64,000 nt of DNA from Humisphaera borealis (GTDB lineage: Bacteria > Planctomycetota > Phycisphaerae > Tepidisphaerales > Tepidisphaeraceae), in contig NZ_CP063458.1 of NCBI RefSeq assembly GCF_015169395.1, forward strand, positions 4,030,001 through 4,094,000, in the 5' to 3' direction. This document shows, one piece after another, positions 43,103-57,360 of this stretch. Within the stretch, counting starts at the first letter, position 1. Each line of letters begins with the position of its first letter. Position numbers and translations under genes: made by a program. The notes beneath the pieces are model-generated. The model was not told the origin of the DNA. It ran no database searches and saw nothing but the letters and a program-made list of their open reading frames with translations.

Positions 43103-44032
43103 TAGGCTCTGTCTAATGGATGCCAAGTTCGGCGCTCGTTAGGAATTGCGCTTTCTATTATTGCATGCCATGCTGCCTCCACACGGAGGTTCTGATGGCT
43201 CGCTACGAAATCACGGACGATCAATGGGCCCTTCTCAAGGACCTGTTTCCCAGGCAGGCTCGCGGCGGCAAGTGGCTCAATCATCGCACCGTCCTCAACG
43301 GCATGCTCTGGATTCTCCGCTCGGGCGCTCCTTGGCGTGACCTGCCCGAACGCTACGGCAAGTTCGGAACGGTCAACCAACGCTTCAACCGCTGGCGTCG
43401 CGACGGCACCTTCGACAAGATCCTCAAGGCCCTTCAGATCCGACTGGACAAGGCCGGCAAGATCGACTGGGACCTGTGGCTGGTCGACGGCACGAACATC
43501 CGCGCCGGCCGGGCCGCGGCCGGTGCTCGCAAAAAAAGCACCCGCTCGACACCCTCGAACCCGACGACCACCATTTGGGCCGCAGCCGCGGCGGATGGGG
43601 ATCGAAACTCCACCTGGTTACTGACGGCAAGGGCCTTATCCTCGGAGCCACCCTCACGGCCGGTCAGACGCACGAATCGACGCAACTCCACAACCTGATC
43701 CACAGTGTCCGCAGACCTCGTCGGATCGGCTGGCCCGATCAACTGGCAGGCGACAAGGGATACAGCTACGAATCAACTCGCGAGTTCCTCAAAGACTGCG
43801 GCATCGAGCCGGTCATCCCGCGAAAGAGCAACCAGAAACGCCCCATAGGCGAACGTTTCGACAAGAAAACCTACCGGAAACGATCCCGCATCGAGCAGGC
43901 CGTGGGCTGATTGAAAGAGTGCCGGAGACTGGCCACCCGGTACGAAAAGCTCGGACTAAGCTTCCTTGGCTTCGTAAAACTCGGAATCATGCTGAAATAC
44001 TTGAGGATTCTGGGTCCATTAGACAGAGCCTA
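43103..44032. repeat. TA target duplication and inverted repeats of the IS5-family element
   Basis: The 16-bp inverted repeats at 43105-43120 and 44015-44030 are perfect complements, bordered on both sides by TA (43103-43104 and 44031-44032), the usual target of the IS427 branch. Confidence 0.8.
43105..44030 (+). mobile_element. IS5-family (IS427-like) insertion sequence, 926 bp, transposase broken
   Basis: Perfect 16-bp terminal inverted repeats starting GGCTCTGTC and flanking TA dinucleotides define the ends. The interior is one transposase in two overlapping frames. The ends remain intact, so it could still be moved in trans. Confidence 0.88.
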
Positions 44033-47821: not shown

Positions 47822-47867
47822 GTGGGCCGGGAGGATCCCCCGTCACCGACGTCCCCCGTCGATCGAA

Positions 47868-47914
47868 TGCACTCGACAGGAGTCGAACCTGTAACCCTCG
47901 GTTCCGAAGTCCGA
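47868..47914 (-). tRNA. 3' half of tRNA-Arg(TCG), attachment-site-like scar
   Basis: On the minus strand the sequence holds an anticodon loop CTTCGGA (TCG), the 3' anticodon stem ACCGA, a T arm ACAGG-TTCGACT-CCTGT and acceptor strand CGAGTGC plus A. No D arm or 5' acceptor precedes it. It marks the edge of an integrated or rearranged segment extending to the right. Confidence 0.65.
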
Positions 47915-48131: not shown

Positions 48132-48521
48132 GTGAAAGAGCGAAAGAAGATCCCCAAGCAAAAGGTATCGACTTCGCGCAAGGGCGATCCGCAGGCGGCC
48201 AGCCGCGGTGCGTCCGTCGCGCGGGCCAGGGCCGAACTGGGGGACGCGATCGATCGGCGATTGAATCTGGACATCGAGGCGATGGAACTCGCCCTGCTCG
48301 CGCGGGCGATCGGCGTGTCGACGTCTCAGATGCGCGCGTCTGAAGACTGCCAGCCTGGCGGAGCTCGAAGCGTGGACGCGTCTGGTCGAGCAGCGGGCGA
48401 AGGGGGTCGCGTGAGCCTGAAGCTTTCTCAGAAGTTGCGGCGGCGGCGGGGCGGCTCACGAGCCAGGTCCCCACTGGTGGTCGTGAGCGAGCCCGACCCG
48501 CTGCGCTGGGACGACGCGTGA
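48132..48521 (+). CDS. Basic hypothetical protein of a mobile element, 129 residues
   Basis: It starts at GTG behind a G-rich stretch. The first 30 residues are Lys/Arg-rich and a helical region follows (ARAELGDAIDRRLNLDIEAM, ALLARAIGVSTSQMRASED). This looks like a small DNA-binding or packaging-type protein, but no family is recognised. It precedes the replication initiator-like gene by 43 bp on the same strand and probably belongs to the same element. Confidence 0.4.
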   Translation: MKERKKIPKQKVSTSRKGDPQAASRGASVARARAELGDAIDRRLNLDIEAMELALLARAIGVSTSQMRASEDCQPGGARSVDASGRAAGEGGRVSLKLSQKLRRRRGGSRARSPLVVVSEPDPLRWDDA

Positions 48522-48564
48522 CGAGAGGGATCCGGGGAAGGGACGCGAACGGAACGGCGAGAAG

Positions 48565-49698
48565 ATGTCAGGTCGACGCGGACATTTTGGAAGGTTCGAT
48601 GCGCTGGCTGAGAACGGCTGGCTGGGCGTCCTGACGGGTCAGGAGCTGGCGCTGTGGTGCGCGTACGAAAAGCATGCGGACGCCGACGGCGTGGCGTACC
48701 CGAAGGGCGCGACGCTGGCGGGCATGCTTGGGCACGTCAACACCAATCACGTCGGCCGGCTGCGGCGGGCGTTGGTGGCGTACGGGCTGTTGGAGGTGAT
48801 CGAGCCAGGCGGCGGTAGCGGCAATGCGTGCCGGGTTCGGGTGCTGATGCCGGGGCAGGCGGAGGGCGCGCGGGCAGGTGATCGGGCGGGTGATCGGGCC
48901 GGCAAGCATGCGTCCGGGAAACACTCCCGGAATGGGAGTGATTGTGACGGGTCTAAAGACTCCCGGATCGGGAGTGTTCGCGGCGACAAACACTCCCAAA
49001 TCGGGAGGGCAAACACTCCCGATTCTGGTGGAAAAACACTCCCAATCCGGGAGATCGCTCATAGAGAAGAAGAGCCCAATGAAGAGCCCAATGAAGAAAT
49101 AACGGCGGCGAACCGCGCACCGGGTGTTCGGAGGGGGCCCGTGGCGGTGGGCATTTCCGTCGCCGCAGTTGAGAGGCTGGAGGCGGAGGCAGAGGCGATC
49201 CTGGACGCGGCGGGGTTTCCGCCGGACGACGCGATCCGCCGGCACCCGAACGCCGAGCTGCCGTTGCTTCGGGAGCTGGCGGCGGACGTCGAGTTCCTGC
49301 GGCCGCTGGGGCAGGTGGCGAACGTTCGGGCGTACTTCGCGCAGGGCATCCGCGAGCGGTGGGGGCCGAACACGCGGCGGGTGCAGGCTGAGATGGCCGC
49401 TGCGGCGTCCAAGGCGGTCGAGCAGCGGCGTGCGGCGCTGGCGGTGGCCGAGGCGGCGCAGCGGAGCCGAGCGACGGAGCAGGCGAACGACCTGGCGGCG
49501 CGAGAACGGCGGGAGCGGGAGGCGATCGAGGCGGTGCCGGCCGATCGGCTGGCGGAACTGGTGGAGGCGGTGCTGGAGGCCAACCCGGACCGGCGGTCGT
49601 TCTGGGCGAAGAAGCATCCGATGCAGAGCCCAGGGCTGAGGGCGGAAGTTCTGAAGTTGTTGACGATGCAGCAGACGGAGGTCGCATGCTCGACGTGA
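48565..49698 (+). CDS. Phage/plasmid-type replication initiator-like protein (O-like layout)
   Basis: This 377-residue protein has N-terminal residues 1-90 with a winged-helix look (LTGQELALWCAYEKHADADG, MLGHVNTNHVGRLRRALVAYGLLEVIEP), as in helix-turn-helix initiators of phages. Residues about 105-175 are a low-complexity linker rich in Ser, Gly, Lys and His. This linker is encoded by five copies of a CTCCC-N5-GGGAG motif. The C-terminal half is Ala/Arg/Glu-rich helix, probably coiled-coil. The layout resembles the lambda O gene, where origin iterons lie inside the initiator gene. No helicase loader is adjacent. The function is inferred from architecture. Confidence 0.5.
   Translation: MSGRRGHFGRFDALAENGWLGVLTGQELALWCAYEKHADADGVAYPKGATLAGMLGHVNTNHVGRLRRALVAYGLLEVIEPGGGSGNACRVRVLMPGQAEGARAGDRAGDRAGKHASGKHSRNGSDCDGSKDSRIGSVRGDKHSQIGRANTPDSGGKTLPIREIAHREEEPNEEPNEEITAANRAPGVRRGPVAVGISVAAVERLEAEAEAILDAAGFPPDDAIRRHPNAELPLLRELAADVEFLRPLGQVANVRAYFAQGIRERWGPNTRRVQAEMAAAASKAVEQRRAALAVAEAAQRSRATEQANDLAARERREREAIEAVPADRLAELVEAVLEANPDRRSFWAKKHPMQSPGLRAEVLKLLTMQQTEVACST
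48924..49104 (+). repeat. Iteron-like repeats inside the initiator gene, with adjacent purine/AT-rich stretch: candidate origin
   Basis: Fifteen-base imperfect palindromes CTCCC-N5-GGGAG start at 48924, 48960, 48993, 49016 (right arm degraded) and 49039; the last three are 23 bp apart. AACA usually precedes them. A relatively AT-rich, purine-loaded segment follows at 49057-49104 with a 12-bp tandem repeat (GAAGAGCCCAAT) in otherwise very GC-rich DNA. Iterons next to an AT-rich unwinding zone are the standard parts of an initiator-bound origin. Confidence 0.55.
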
Positions 49699-49892
49699 CG
49701 GCCGACTTTCAGCGCGGTTGTGGGTACCGAAGCCAAGGGCCACACAGCAACGTTGTCACAGCCGTCGTCACAGCCATTTTCGGCATGTGCCTAGAGTGAA
49801 CATTTCCTACAAAGTGCCGACTCTGAATGCTTCAGTGTTTCCCACCGACAGGCACACCGGTCAGCGGGGGCGTGACACTCCGACTCAGGCAT
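49699..49892. other. Gene-free spacer
   Basis: No gene-like frame. A short CACAGCCGTCGTCACAGCC repetition occurs near 49765. Confidence 0.35.
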
Positions 49893-50548
49893 TCAGTTCT
49901 TCCCGAAGGACTCGCTGAGTACCACGGCGCGGACGAGATCCTTGAATCCGCCTTTGTTGGCCGAGAGGTTTTTCATGATGCCGTCGATCACGGCGCGGTC
50001 GGCGAACTCGGGCGTCCGGCCCAGGGCGTAGGTCATGAGTTTCTCCGTGAGTGAGCGGGTGAATTGCTCGTGCCGCGCGATGAGCAGGCTGCGGAAGTCG
50101 GCTATGCCGGTGAACTTCTCGCCGGTGGGCAGCTCGCCGCTGGGATCGATCTTCTGCTCTTTCGAATAGTTCGCGCGCCAGCCGCCGATGGCGTTGAAGT
50201 TTTCCAGGGCGAAGCCAAAGGGATCGACCTTCCGATGACACGCGGCGCAGGTTTCGATCGTGCGATGCTTGGCGAGCTGCTCGCGGATATTGGTGGCTCC
50301 GCTGGCATCGGGTTCGATGAGAGGCACGTCGGGCGGTGGCGGTGGCGGCGTGTAGCCGAGGATCTTCTGCTGCACGTAAACACCCCGCACGACGGGCGAA
50401 GTGTCCACGCCATTGGCCGAGGCGGTGAGGAACGAGGCCTGGGTGAGTAGGCCGCCTCGCTGGCCTTTAGGCAGCGACACTTGGCGAAGTTGCACACCCT
50501 CCACTGGTGGCAGGCCGTAATGCAGCGCGAGTTCGCGATTGATCAAGG
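49893..50548 (-). pseudogene. DUF1592-family gene truncated at its 5' side
   Basis: Only the last about 215 codons remain: NRELALHYGLPPVEGVQLRQ, RGGLLTQASFLTASANGVDT, the haem motif in CAACHRKVDPFGFALENFNA, and the DUF1585 tail (ARHEQFTRSLTEKLMTYALG). The N-terminal cytochrome, DUF1587 and most of DUF1592 are gone. Similarity stops at about 50545, exactly where the kinase remnant on the other strand starts. Confidence 0.75.
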
Positions 50549-52779
50549 AGCAGGAGGCGCCGCGCCCCAGCGTCCGGCTGACCACCTCTGGCACGCTTAA
50601 CAAGGTCGCCGCGGCCTGCCAAACTGAGGCTGAACGGCTTCCGCAACTACTTCAGGGGGAACTCGACTGGATCGTGATGAAGTGCCTGGAGAAGGACCGT
50701 ACCCGGCGGTACGAGACAGCCAACGGCCTGGCCCGCGATGTCGAGCGATACCTGCACGATGAGCCTGTTGAGGCTTGCCCGCCGTCAGTGATATACCGGC
50801 TCCGCAAAGCTGCGAGGAAACATCGTCGGCTTCTGACGGCTACCGCATGTTTCGCCGGATTGCTGGTGGCTGCTGCCGCGGTCAGCACTGTCCTGGCGAC
50901 GTGGGCGATGCGATCCGAGGCCGCTGCGACGGCGGCCCGGGAGCACGCCGAATCCGCCCTTAACCGCGAGACGGCGGCGCACGCTGACGCCGAGGCGGCG
51001 CGGGCCAAGGCGGAGACCTACGCCGATCGCCTCAGCCGCGCAACCCGCTTCGCTTCGGACGGTATTGGCAGCTACTACCGCGGGAACTGGACCGAAGCGA
51101 ACGACCGATTTGCCCAGGCCGTTCAGGCCCAGCCGGATCTCTTCATCACCTACATGTATCGCGGCCCGATGTATGCGAAGCTCGGCCTCTGGGACCGCGC
51201 CGCTGAGGATTACGACCATCGCGTACAACTCTCGATGGGGGCCAATCCGCAGGCGTATTTCGAGCACGCCGTGCTGAAGCGATATCTCGGCGATGAGGCG
51301 GGTTATCGACGGATTTGCCAGGAGATGAGCCGGCAGCACGGCGGGTCGTCATCGTCGGACGACCAGCAACTCATTCTCCGCGCCTGCACGCTCTCATCCA
51401 ACACGGTCGGCGACGCCCAGGCGCTTGCCCGTCGCGGGGAGGGGACGATTTCGTCGTCATACCGCCCATGGACACTGAGCCACGCCGGCGTCGCACACCT
51501 TCGGGCTGGCAACCTCGATCAGGCCGTGGCCCGCCTCAACGAAGCGATGGAGAAAGGGGCCAATTCGCCCGGCGGAGTCCACCGGTTCAGCCAGTTCCCG
51601 CTCGCGATCACACTCTTCCGCCAGGGGAAAGTCCCCGAGGCGCAAAGCGCTCTGGCCAAGGGGAAGCAGGCGATCGAGGAATGGACGCAGGCGATGGTCC
51701 GCAACCCGTCGGGCACGATGCCGATTTCGTGGTCAGATTGGCTCGAATGCAACATATTTTGCCGTGAGGCCGAGGAACTGATGAACGGCGCTGTTCCCCC
51801 GGAAGATCCGCGGCTGATCGCGGTGTACGAGCGGGCACTGGCGACGATCACCACCGGTGACGCGTCCACTTTTATGGAGTCGGGGAGAAAGCATCTCGCC
51901 AGCAAAGCTTGGAACGAGGCCGCCGCCGACTTTGCCCGCGCCTTGGAACAGTTGCCCTACGGCGGGCGCATCGCTCTTAACGAAGGGCGGATGACTCTGG
52001 AGACGGTGCGGCAGCCCGAGGTTTTCGATAGGCTGGTGCAGCTCCGCCCGAATGATTGGCGCCTGTTTGGGGCGCGCGGCCGTCTGTTCGCCATTGGGCG
52101 CAAATGGGACTTGGCGGAAGCCGAATACGCCCGAACGCTGCAACTGCAGGAAACCGCGTTCGCGGCCGACGGCAACTCGGCTGATTTGCAGGTGCTGCGC
52201 GCCCGTGCCGCCGTGACGCAGGAACTGGCCTGCCTCCGTCTGCTGAGAGGTGATCAGGCGGGGTATCTCACGCTTTGCAGTACCGCTGTGCATGAGCATC
52301 AAAAAACCGAAGATGCAGTGACACTGAGCTTGGCATGCCGAACGGTCGTTCAAGGTCCGGGCGGCACCAGTGAGTCGTTGTCGCAGGCGATCCGTCTGGG
52401 CGAGCTTGCGGTTGCCAAATCGCCGGACGCGGCGTGGAACCACTATGCCGTGGCATTGGCGTACTGCCGGGCCGGACGGGATGCAGACGCGATCAAGCGG
52501 CTCGAAGAGTCGCTGCGTATGCACCCGGCGTGGATCGGGCGCGGTCAGAACTATGCACTGCTGGCCATCGCCTGCGCGCACCTGAATCGGAACACCGAGG
52601 CGAGCGACTGGCTCCGCCGCGCCCAGGCTCTCGGCGAAGAAATCGACGCCAGGTACGCGAAGACTGCGTTCGGCTACGCATCGACGGAGTACTTGGGGGA
52701 CTGGCTCAGCCTGCAGGTTTTGCTTCGCGAGGCGGATTCGCTCGTGAACCAGGCCGCCGGTCCATCCGACGCCAAGTAA
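50539..52779 (+). pseudogene. Ser/Thr protein kinase with TPR-like repeats, kinase domain deleted
   Basis: The frame enters at the end of a planctomycete-type protein kinase: IKEQEAPRPSVRL, LDWIVMKCLEKDRTRRYETA and GLARDVERYLHDEPVEACPP. A membrane helix follows (LLTATACFAGLLVAAAAVSTVLA) and then a large extracytoplasmic TPR-like region (WTEANDRFAQAVQAQPDLFI, GNLDQAVARLNEAMEKG, DADAIKRLEESLRMHPAW). The nucleotide-binding and catalytic loops are absent and no proper start codon exists, so it is non-functional as a kinase. The remaining 700 codons are undamaged. Confidence 0.8.
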
Positions 52780-55099: not shown

Positions 55100-55142
55100 G
55101 CATTCATATTCTCTCCGTAAGCATACACGTGTGTTGAGCTCG

Positions 55143-55508
55143 GACCGGTTTGTAGCCGGGTAGCTCAGAAGATCGATGCCGCCGTCATTGTCGCCGCCGC
55201 TTTTCGGAACGAGTATGGCGGACGAAACCATGCAGTTTGCGCCCGGGAACCGAAGACAACCAGCCGTTAACCTGCGGCCATTGGTCTCTCGTTCGACCAC
55301 AGACTTTCGGGCCAATCGGGCCAGACACGGGGTGGTTGAGCGCGCTAGGCGAAGACTCAGAAACCCGACGAGAGACTATCGCCGAGACTGCCCAGATCGC
55401 TAAACCCTCGCGGACGTGGGCGAAACAAGCGAAAACGCCAAGGCGGGTGGCCTCGGCGTTTCGTCTTAACCAGCGGGTCGCGATTTCTCGCGGCCGTCAT
55501 TTAAGTAG
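55143..55508. repeat. 370-bp direct repeat, copy 1
   Basis: It is strongly similar to 56852-57223 over its full length with scattered substitutions and a few small insertions. It contains a terminator-like hairpin and ends with GTCATTTAAGTAG inside the esterase stop region. Confidence 0.85.
55434..55466. terminator. Terminator-like hairpin in repeat copy 1
   Basis: An 11-bp stem with one mismatch (55434-55444 with 55450-55460) is followed by TCGTCTT. It would serve leftward transcripts of the esterase gene (minus-strand tail rich in T) as well as rightward ones. Confidence 0.5.
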
Positions 55509-56653: not shown

Positions 56654-56851
56654 TTGCTTACGATGATATCCGGCTGCTGAATGAAGCAACCGGTGATCGT
56701 TCTTTGGCTTGATGCCGGCGGGTACGTGTCTGAGATGGCTGCTTTGGGATCTCAGAATGTCTATTTGACCGCCAGCGTCTAGTACCAATTGTCCTTCGAG
56801 TTCGAACCCGTTGGATTGCCGATGGCTTGAATTCTGAGACCCTCGCGCTCA

Positions 56852-57223
56852 GACCGGCTTGTAGCCGGGCAGCCCAGAAGATCGATGCCGCCGTCATTGT
56901 CGCCGCCGCTTTTCGGAATGAGTATGGCGGACGAAACCATGCAGTTTGCGCCCGGGAACCGAAGACAACCAGCCGTTAACCTGTGGCCGCTGGTCTCTCG
57001 TTCTCGTTCGACCAGAGACTTTCGGGCCAATCAGGCCAGACACGGGGCGGTTGGGCGCGGTAGGCGAAGACTCAGAAGCGCGACGAGAGACTCCGACCGA
57101 GACCGCCCGGATCGCTAAACCCTCGCGGACGAGGGCAAAACAAACGAAAACGCCGAGGCGGTTAGCCTCGGCGTTTCGTCTTAACCAGCGGGTCGCGATT
57201 TCTCGCGGCCGTCATTTGAGTAG
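56852..57223. repeat. 370-bp direct repeat, copy 2
   Basis: This is the second copy of the segment at 55143-55508. It ends exactly at the 3' terminal bases of a tRNA-Met half gene (TAG at 57221-57223), showing that the repeat is the DNA downstream of that tRNA. Confidence 0.85.
57149..57180. terminator. Terminator-like hairpin in repeat copy 2
   Basis: A perfect 11-bp stem (57149-57159 with 57165-57175) is flanked by A-rich and T-rich runs, so it is possibly bidirectional. It lies about 45 bases past the 3' end of the tRNA-Met scar, in the place of a tRNA terminator. Confidence 0.6.
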
Positions 57224-57262
57224 CGGGGGGAGGGTTCGAACCTCCAACCTCCGGGTTATGAG
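57221..57262 (-). tRNA. 3' half of tRNA-Met(CAT), attachment-site-like scar
   Basis: On the minus strand: anticodon loop CTCATAA, then CCCGG, T arm GGAGG-TTCGAAC-CCTCC and acceptor strand CCCGCTA. The 5' half is absent: upstream bases cannot form the anticodon stem or a D arm. Confidence 0.65.
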
Positions 57263-57360
57263 CGTCTTCGACGCCAAAACCGTAACTCTCTTTGTAGACT
57301 CAAACTCACGACGACCCCACGGTTTACGACCGTGAGCCGTACACAAACGTGTTAGCCATG

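Follow-up and report, generated by a model that had tools for sequence, protein, structure and literature searches.

Can a gene carried by an integrated bacterial element hold a replication origin within its own coding sequence? The question is raised by a gene at positions 48565-49698 (plus strand) of a 64,000-nucleotide stretch of the Humisphaera borealis genome (contig NZ_CP063458.1, positions 4,030,001-4,094,000), hereafter the window. Few descriptions exist of the replication origins in planctomycete mobile elements, and our literature search on them found nothing specific. We propose, with a probability of about 0.86, that this gene encodes an initiator of the phage lambda O type with its origin embedded mid-gene, which would work in the same way as lambda O and ori-lambda. 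The anatomy of the locus is established, comprising the gene, its iterons and their independence of reading frame, the melting zone, the attachment-site repeats, the integrase and a plan common to relatives, and it yields base-precise predictions of origins, here and in the relatives, that can be tested.

Five inverted repeats lie within the putative initiator gene

The gene is a single open reading frame (ORF) of 377 amino acids that matches PHROG_270 “replication initiation protein” (E=0.004), with G+C contents of 0.74, 0.52 and 0.79 at the first, second and third codon positions (GC1, GC2 and GC3), respectively. Its middle part, codons 120-163, harbors five copies of the inverted repeat ACTCCC-N5-GGGAG(T), within about 48916-49054 and with unit spacings of 36, 33, 23 and 23 bp. 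Iterons 1 (ACTCCCGGAATGGGAGT, 48923-48939) and 2 (ACTCCCGGATCGGGAGT, 48959-48975) are perfect inverted repeats, followed by iterons 3 (ACTCCCAAATCGGGAGG, 48992-49008), 4 (ACTCCCGATTCTGGTGG, 49015-49031) and 5 (ACTCCCAATCCGGGAGA, 49038-49054). The original prediction of five CTCCC-N5-GGGAG repeats in an initiator gene thus holds, the palindrome being exact in four of the five; iteron 4 has a degenerate right arm and keeps the left arm only (CTCCCGATTCTGGTG, at 49016).

The motif is specific to this locus. A search of the whole 7.19-Mb genome for ACTCCCN5GGGAG returned this locus only, and the reversed-pattern control gave one match. Codon shuffling of the iteron region produced at most three comparable repeats. 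When 60 random 330-bp stretches were drawn from the window and other loci, 59 gave two or three copies and one gave five.

The iterons occupy frames 2, 2, 2, 1 and 0, using all three reading frames, and encode in order the peptides HSRNG, DSRIG, HSQIG, NTPDSGG and LPIREI, with the DNA motif kept throughout. In addition, GC3 is 0.53 across the repeats and the tract that follows them, compared to 0.85 elsewhere in the gene. Because the copies span three frames and GC3 drops exactly there, the constraint acts on the DNA and not on a protein linker. The locus is a clear example of DNA that carries two overlapping codes, one for a protein and one for a predicted origin.

The least stable DNA of the gene directly follows the last iteron

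Nearest-neighbor stability calculated over 48400-49900 reaches its minimum directly past the last iteron, in the 50-bp segment that begins at 49053, with a z-score of -2.9 against the window mean; just 0.13% of the window shows a lower value. The predicted unwinding zone (49053-49105) is the least stable stretch of the gene and has a purine fraction of 0.75 on the coding strand, and the 40 bp of lowest stability in the gene are likewise 75% purine on that strand. A 12-bp tandem in a purine- and AT-rich tract past the repeats had also been predicted, and is found inside this zone at 49069-49092 (plus strand) as two copies of GAAGAGCCCAAT, which encode EEPNEEPNEE. Given that the motif is locus-specific and lies in mixed frames, that GC3 drops, and that the least stable DNA comes right after the last copy, the repeats are conserved as DNA.

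The N-terminal domain links the protein to planctomycete replication initiators

Residues 4-97 (48574-48855, plus strand) form a predicted winged-helix DNA-binding domain whose match to HTH_36 (E=0.0036) falls short of the Pfam cut-off and aligns with the relatives L002, L015 and L019 at 29-35% identity. We built an N-domain profile from the window protein and three weakly similar proteins of the same class. All four members match HTH_36, the best at 5.7e-11, and profile members match the PHROG families “replication initiation” and “O-like”, the best at 6e-12; among PDB sequences, the N-domain of DnaD comes closest to the profile (E=0.0087). The relatives thus fall into initiator families rather than an unrelated one, and several adjoin a helicase, loader or integrase gene. 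Winged-helix identity of the window protein is accordingly supported by profile comparison, which predicts an initiator of the winged-helix (HTH_36) kind that has diverged strongly. By sequence, the protein lies outside the Pfam family Phage_rep_O (PF04492), for which the window protein gave no Pfam match and one of the four profile members matched at E=0.1; Pfam comparison also detected no Rep_3 domain in the window protein.

Searching 392 planctomycete genomes with the profile yielded about 20 further such proteins, once GntR-type matches (L052, L053, L055-L057, L059, L060 and L062) had been set aside as unrelated regulators. Full-length relatives match O-like and replication-initiation PHROGs. 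Their neighbors include a DnaB_C helicase (L043, L021), an AAA_25 ATPase (L051, L022), an IstB/DnaC-type ATPase (L002), an integrase (L036, L047) and a terminase (L021), and the helicase or loader gene lies directly downstream of the initiator in L002, L043, L051 and L022. Viral sequences scanned for two of the relatives, and for the iteron pattern at the DNA level, gave no match.

Twelve relatives (L015, L036, L041, L043-L045, L048-L051, L054 and L058; L002 and L019 belong to the same group) carry linker iterons of their own, with three to six copies of a word of at least 12 bp. In ten of the twelve the copy number exceeds that of every codon shuffle, and in L015 and L049, with three copies each, it equals the shuffle maximum. 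The iteron words differ wholly between genes, and many are palindromic. When the spacings of relatives, lambda and window were pooled (n=47), with copies treated as independent in the frame and spacing statistics, 30 of the 47 were not multiples of 3; two classes stood out, 20-25 bp (28 spacings) and 32-37 bp (13), with the interval of 26-31 bp between them empty (Rayleigh p of about 1e-7), a distribution consistent with helical phasing. Of 13 genes, not counting lambda, 8 have their gene-wide least stable 40 bp beginning 0-50 bp past the point where the last iteron starts, against 0.9 expected (p = 3e-7). GC3 is lower within the origin region than outside it in 13 of 14 genes.

A tandem array with a 12-bp period was considered as a phylum-wide feature and rejected: the window, L002 and L044 have a clear array, L015 and L043 a partial one, and none was seen elsewhere, so we do not claim it as general. 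Other short tandems stand just after the iterons in the melting zones of several relatives, namely three copies of TTCAGAAGG in L045, two of AGAACGARAGCCA in L049, and further periods of the GAGAAGAGGGA type in L051 and the GAACGAATA type in L043. These tandems are possible candidates for strand-capture sites.

The initiator gene lies near one end of an integrated, probably decayed element

A 44-bp repeat at 47866-47909 (minus strand) corresponds to the 3' half of tRNA-Arg(TCG) and marks the left attachment site. An identical second copy in the same orientation lies 27.6 kb downstream, inside the intact tRNA-Arg(TCG) gene (C1:4105471-4105514). Next to this copy, an integrase-like ORF of 469 amino acids (C1:4103926-4105335, minus strand; PHROG_1, E=1.2e-5) begins at a distance of 138 bp from the intact tRNA-Arg gene, away from which it reads. 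A Pfam scan of this ORF gave no match, and the protein is 28% identical to an integrase that lies close to a further member of the initiator group (L019; L023). The surmise of a tRNA-Arg scar belonging to an integrated element is therefore borne out: the locus is part of an integrated mobile element bounded by tRNA-Arg repeats, with the integrase at the far end. Its ancestor may have been a phage, a satellite or an integrative plasmid. Convergent with the integrase-like ORF and overlapping its end is an HTH_17-like, excisionase-type protein (C1:4103258-4104025; L031 9258-10025), recognized by a sub-threshold match.

Upstream of the initiator gene and in the same direction is a small ORF of 129 amino acids (48132-48521, plus strand), which matches no family above noise. 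At the 3' end, an ATG overlapping the end of the initiator gene may start a next gene (49687-49720, plus strand, right limit approximate); the frame, as read from the sequence, opens with MLDVTADF and appears to be cut short, leaving no intact gene 3' of the initiator. Between the end modules, the part examined encodes mostly host-type proteins, including DUF1588/DUF1585, TPR, ankyrin/cytochrome, sulfatase and FGE proteins, some of them truncated. The genome is a single contig of 7.19 Mb, and the PSCyt1 and DUF1588/DUF1585 genes in its gene content point to a planctomycete host. At 49893-50900, where the initiator module has its right edge, DUF1588/DUF1585 gene fragments meet a TPR protein to which a kinase-like C-terminal region is fused, a junction that shows signs of rearrangement. 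No packaging, capsid or helper-phage interference genes were recognized among the ORFs that were listed or scanned.

Probable decay of the element is indicated by an interior of mostly host-type genes and by the lack of an intact gene after the initiator; the element either carried much host-type cargo or had its middle lost and replaced. Present-day origin activity is doubtful because the integrated copy looks decayed. We consider it slightly better than an even bet that the locus is a former origin, now a dead remnant in which the initiator survives by chance and replicates nothing today, a view compatible with the origin having been of the lambda O type. The missing downstream gene, the flanking fragments and the host-type genes between the attachment repeats speak for it; however, the initiator ORF, four perfect iteron cores, the melting zone and the integrase ORF are all intact.

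A second tRNA 3'-half scar, tRNA-Met-like and on the minus strand, lies at 57221-57265. It was rejected as a boundary of the element: the best other copy in the genome (C1:2033480) has one mismatch and is 2 Mb away and, as this is the sole similar sequence, the scar is probably another old integration. Two duplicates of about 380 bp (55138-55508 and 56847-57223), 91-95% identical and 1.7 kb apart, each contain an imperfect palindrome and surround two small genes judged by eye to be hydrolase-like and acetyltransferase-like. Near the element, at 43120-43910, a transposase is encoded in two overlapping frames (192 and 144 amino acids), which by eye resembles frameshifting IS5-family elements.

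Alternative readings of the repeats

The encoded protein could instead be a winged-helix transcription regulator whose palindromes are operators in its own gene, with no origin at all. Winged-helix profiles of regulators do match it weakly too, and a 17-bp palindrome is typical of an operator. However, an operator reading sits poorly with five mid-gene copies followed at once by the least stable, purine-biased tract of the gene, with relatives that fall in replication-initiation PHROGs and in several cases adjoin helicases or loaders, and with a plan that recurs around unrelated repeat sequences; we regard it as improbable. Marginally less probable again is that the palindromes serve another factor, as a partition site, integrase/excisionase sites or sites of a host repressor. 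Palindromic arrays can act as parS-like sites, and the HTH_17-like protein does lie near the integrase, but the array is placed inside the initiator gene beside the melting zone, this coupling is repeated in relatives with different neighbors, and no parA or parB gene was recognized among the ORFs examined. That the repeats are a low-complexity protein linker (HSRNG/DSRIG/HSQIG and so on), with the DNA likeness following from the peptides, agrees with the shared frame and similar peptides of iterons 1-3 but is contradicted by iterons 4 and 5, which keep the motif in the other two frames, by the pooled spacings, by GC3 disturbed exactly at the repeats and by a repeat that differs from gene to gene, so that we give it next to no credence.

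Several observations weigh against a lambda O-type origin at this locus. The HTH_36 match of the isolated N-domain scores 17.5 bits, below the Pfam cut-off of 25 bits, and PHROG_27344 matches the same domain at E=0.061. Direct sequence search of genome contigs, viral contigs, phages and plasmids gave no match to the whole window protein, and relatives emerged only when profiles were used or whole genomes of related species were searched. No family is detectable for its C-terminal half; a likeness of this part to L039, seen by eye, was dropped when BLAST did not support it. Structure prediction without alignments was too poor to give structural confirmation, with a predicted local distance difference test (pLDDT) score of 50 for the whole protein and 46 for the N-domain. 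No helicase or helicase-loader gene lies directly downstream, and the interior between the tRNA repeats is, where examined, mostly host-type. Nearly half of the profile relatives have no clear iteron array. Moreover, the iterons in the pooled tests were picked by repeat search, although the expectation of melting just downstream of them was taken from lambda.

A proposed mechanism and its wider meaning

On the model of lambda, the N-terminal winged-helix domain would bind, as dimers, the five inverted-repeat iterons. The bound dimers may then wrap the DNA and open the purine-asymmetric tract (49053-49105), and recruitment of a helicase or helicase loader might fall to the C-terminal part or to a partner since lost. 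The element would have integrated at the 3' half of tRNA-Arg(TCG) via a tyrosine-type integrase. In the excised circle, attP would be flanked by the initiator on one side (about 0.7 kb) and the integrase on the other (about 0.1 kb).

The wider planctomycete set with private iterons is a more interesting product than the window locus itself. About 13 pairs of initiator and iteron, with unrelated sites and one predicted fold, provide a dataset on how winged-helix initiators choose their sites, and the predicted origins could seed replicating vectors for a phylum that is hard to engineer. More speculatively, and with the odds against it, the planctomycete O-like initiators might represent a phylum-wide, undescribed class of gene-embedded origins, in which iterons diversify freely together with the DNA-binding domain, and helical phasing, a purine-rich downstream melting zone and often tandems of 9-17 bp inside that zone stay fixed. 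These tandems might be initiator-specific capture sites for single strands, like the 13-mers of oriC and RK2, written in protein as a repeated EPxx-like peptide.

Comparison with known origins

Compared to iteron plasmids (P1, F, RK2 and R6K, with Rep_3/TrfA-type initiators), the window locus has a similar combination of phased repeats, here predicted to bind the initiator, beside an AT-rich region with short tandems. However, its iterons are inverted repeats inside the gene, in contrast to direct repeats outside it, and its initiator is not of the Rep_3/RepA type.

The closer likeness is to lambda, in which the iterons lie inside gene O with an AT-rich purine tract downstream (PMC7466680, PMC5043065). 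In the lambda record, each of iterons 1-4 (ATCCCTCAAAACGAGGGA or a variant of it) is an inverted repeat in which 5 bp separate two arms of 5 bp. They are spaced 20, 24 and 23 bp apart, occupy frames 0, 2, 2 and 1 in the part of O spanning codons 117-144, and have the least stable DNA of O directly after them. The window shares the 5-bp arms and N5 spacer, spacings of 20-24 bp, the mixed frames, the mid-gene position (codons 120-163), the purine-asymmetric AT-rich zone just 3' of the iterons and, by prediction, an N-terminal DNA-binding domain that precedes them, so that the lambda O plan suggested originally for this gene agrees with the lambda record. It differs from lambda in an unrelated iteron sequence, in having five copies instead of four, in two spacings of 33 and 36 bp, in an initiator without a Phage_rep_O match and without a P-like loader gene next to it, and in belonging to an integrative element of a planctomycete.

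In contrast to the window copy, several initiators of the HTH_36/PHROG_270 type from Planctomycetota prophages and elements retain helicase, loader or integrase neighbors, and the iterons are private to each gene. Nevertheless, the window locus resembles this group in its predicted winged-helix N-domain, in linker iterons placed in mixed frames, and in the purine-rich unstable tract that usually adjoins them.
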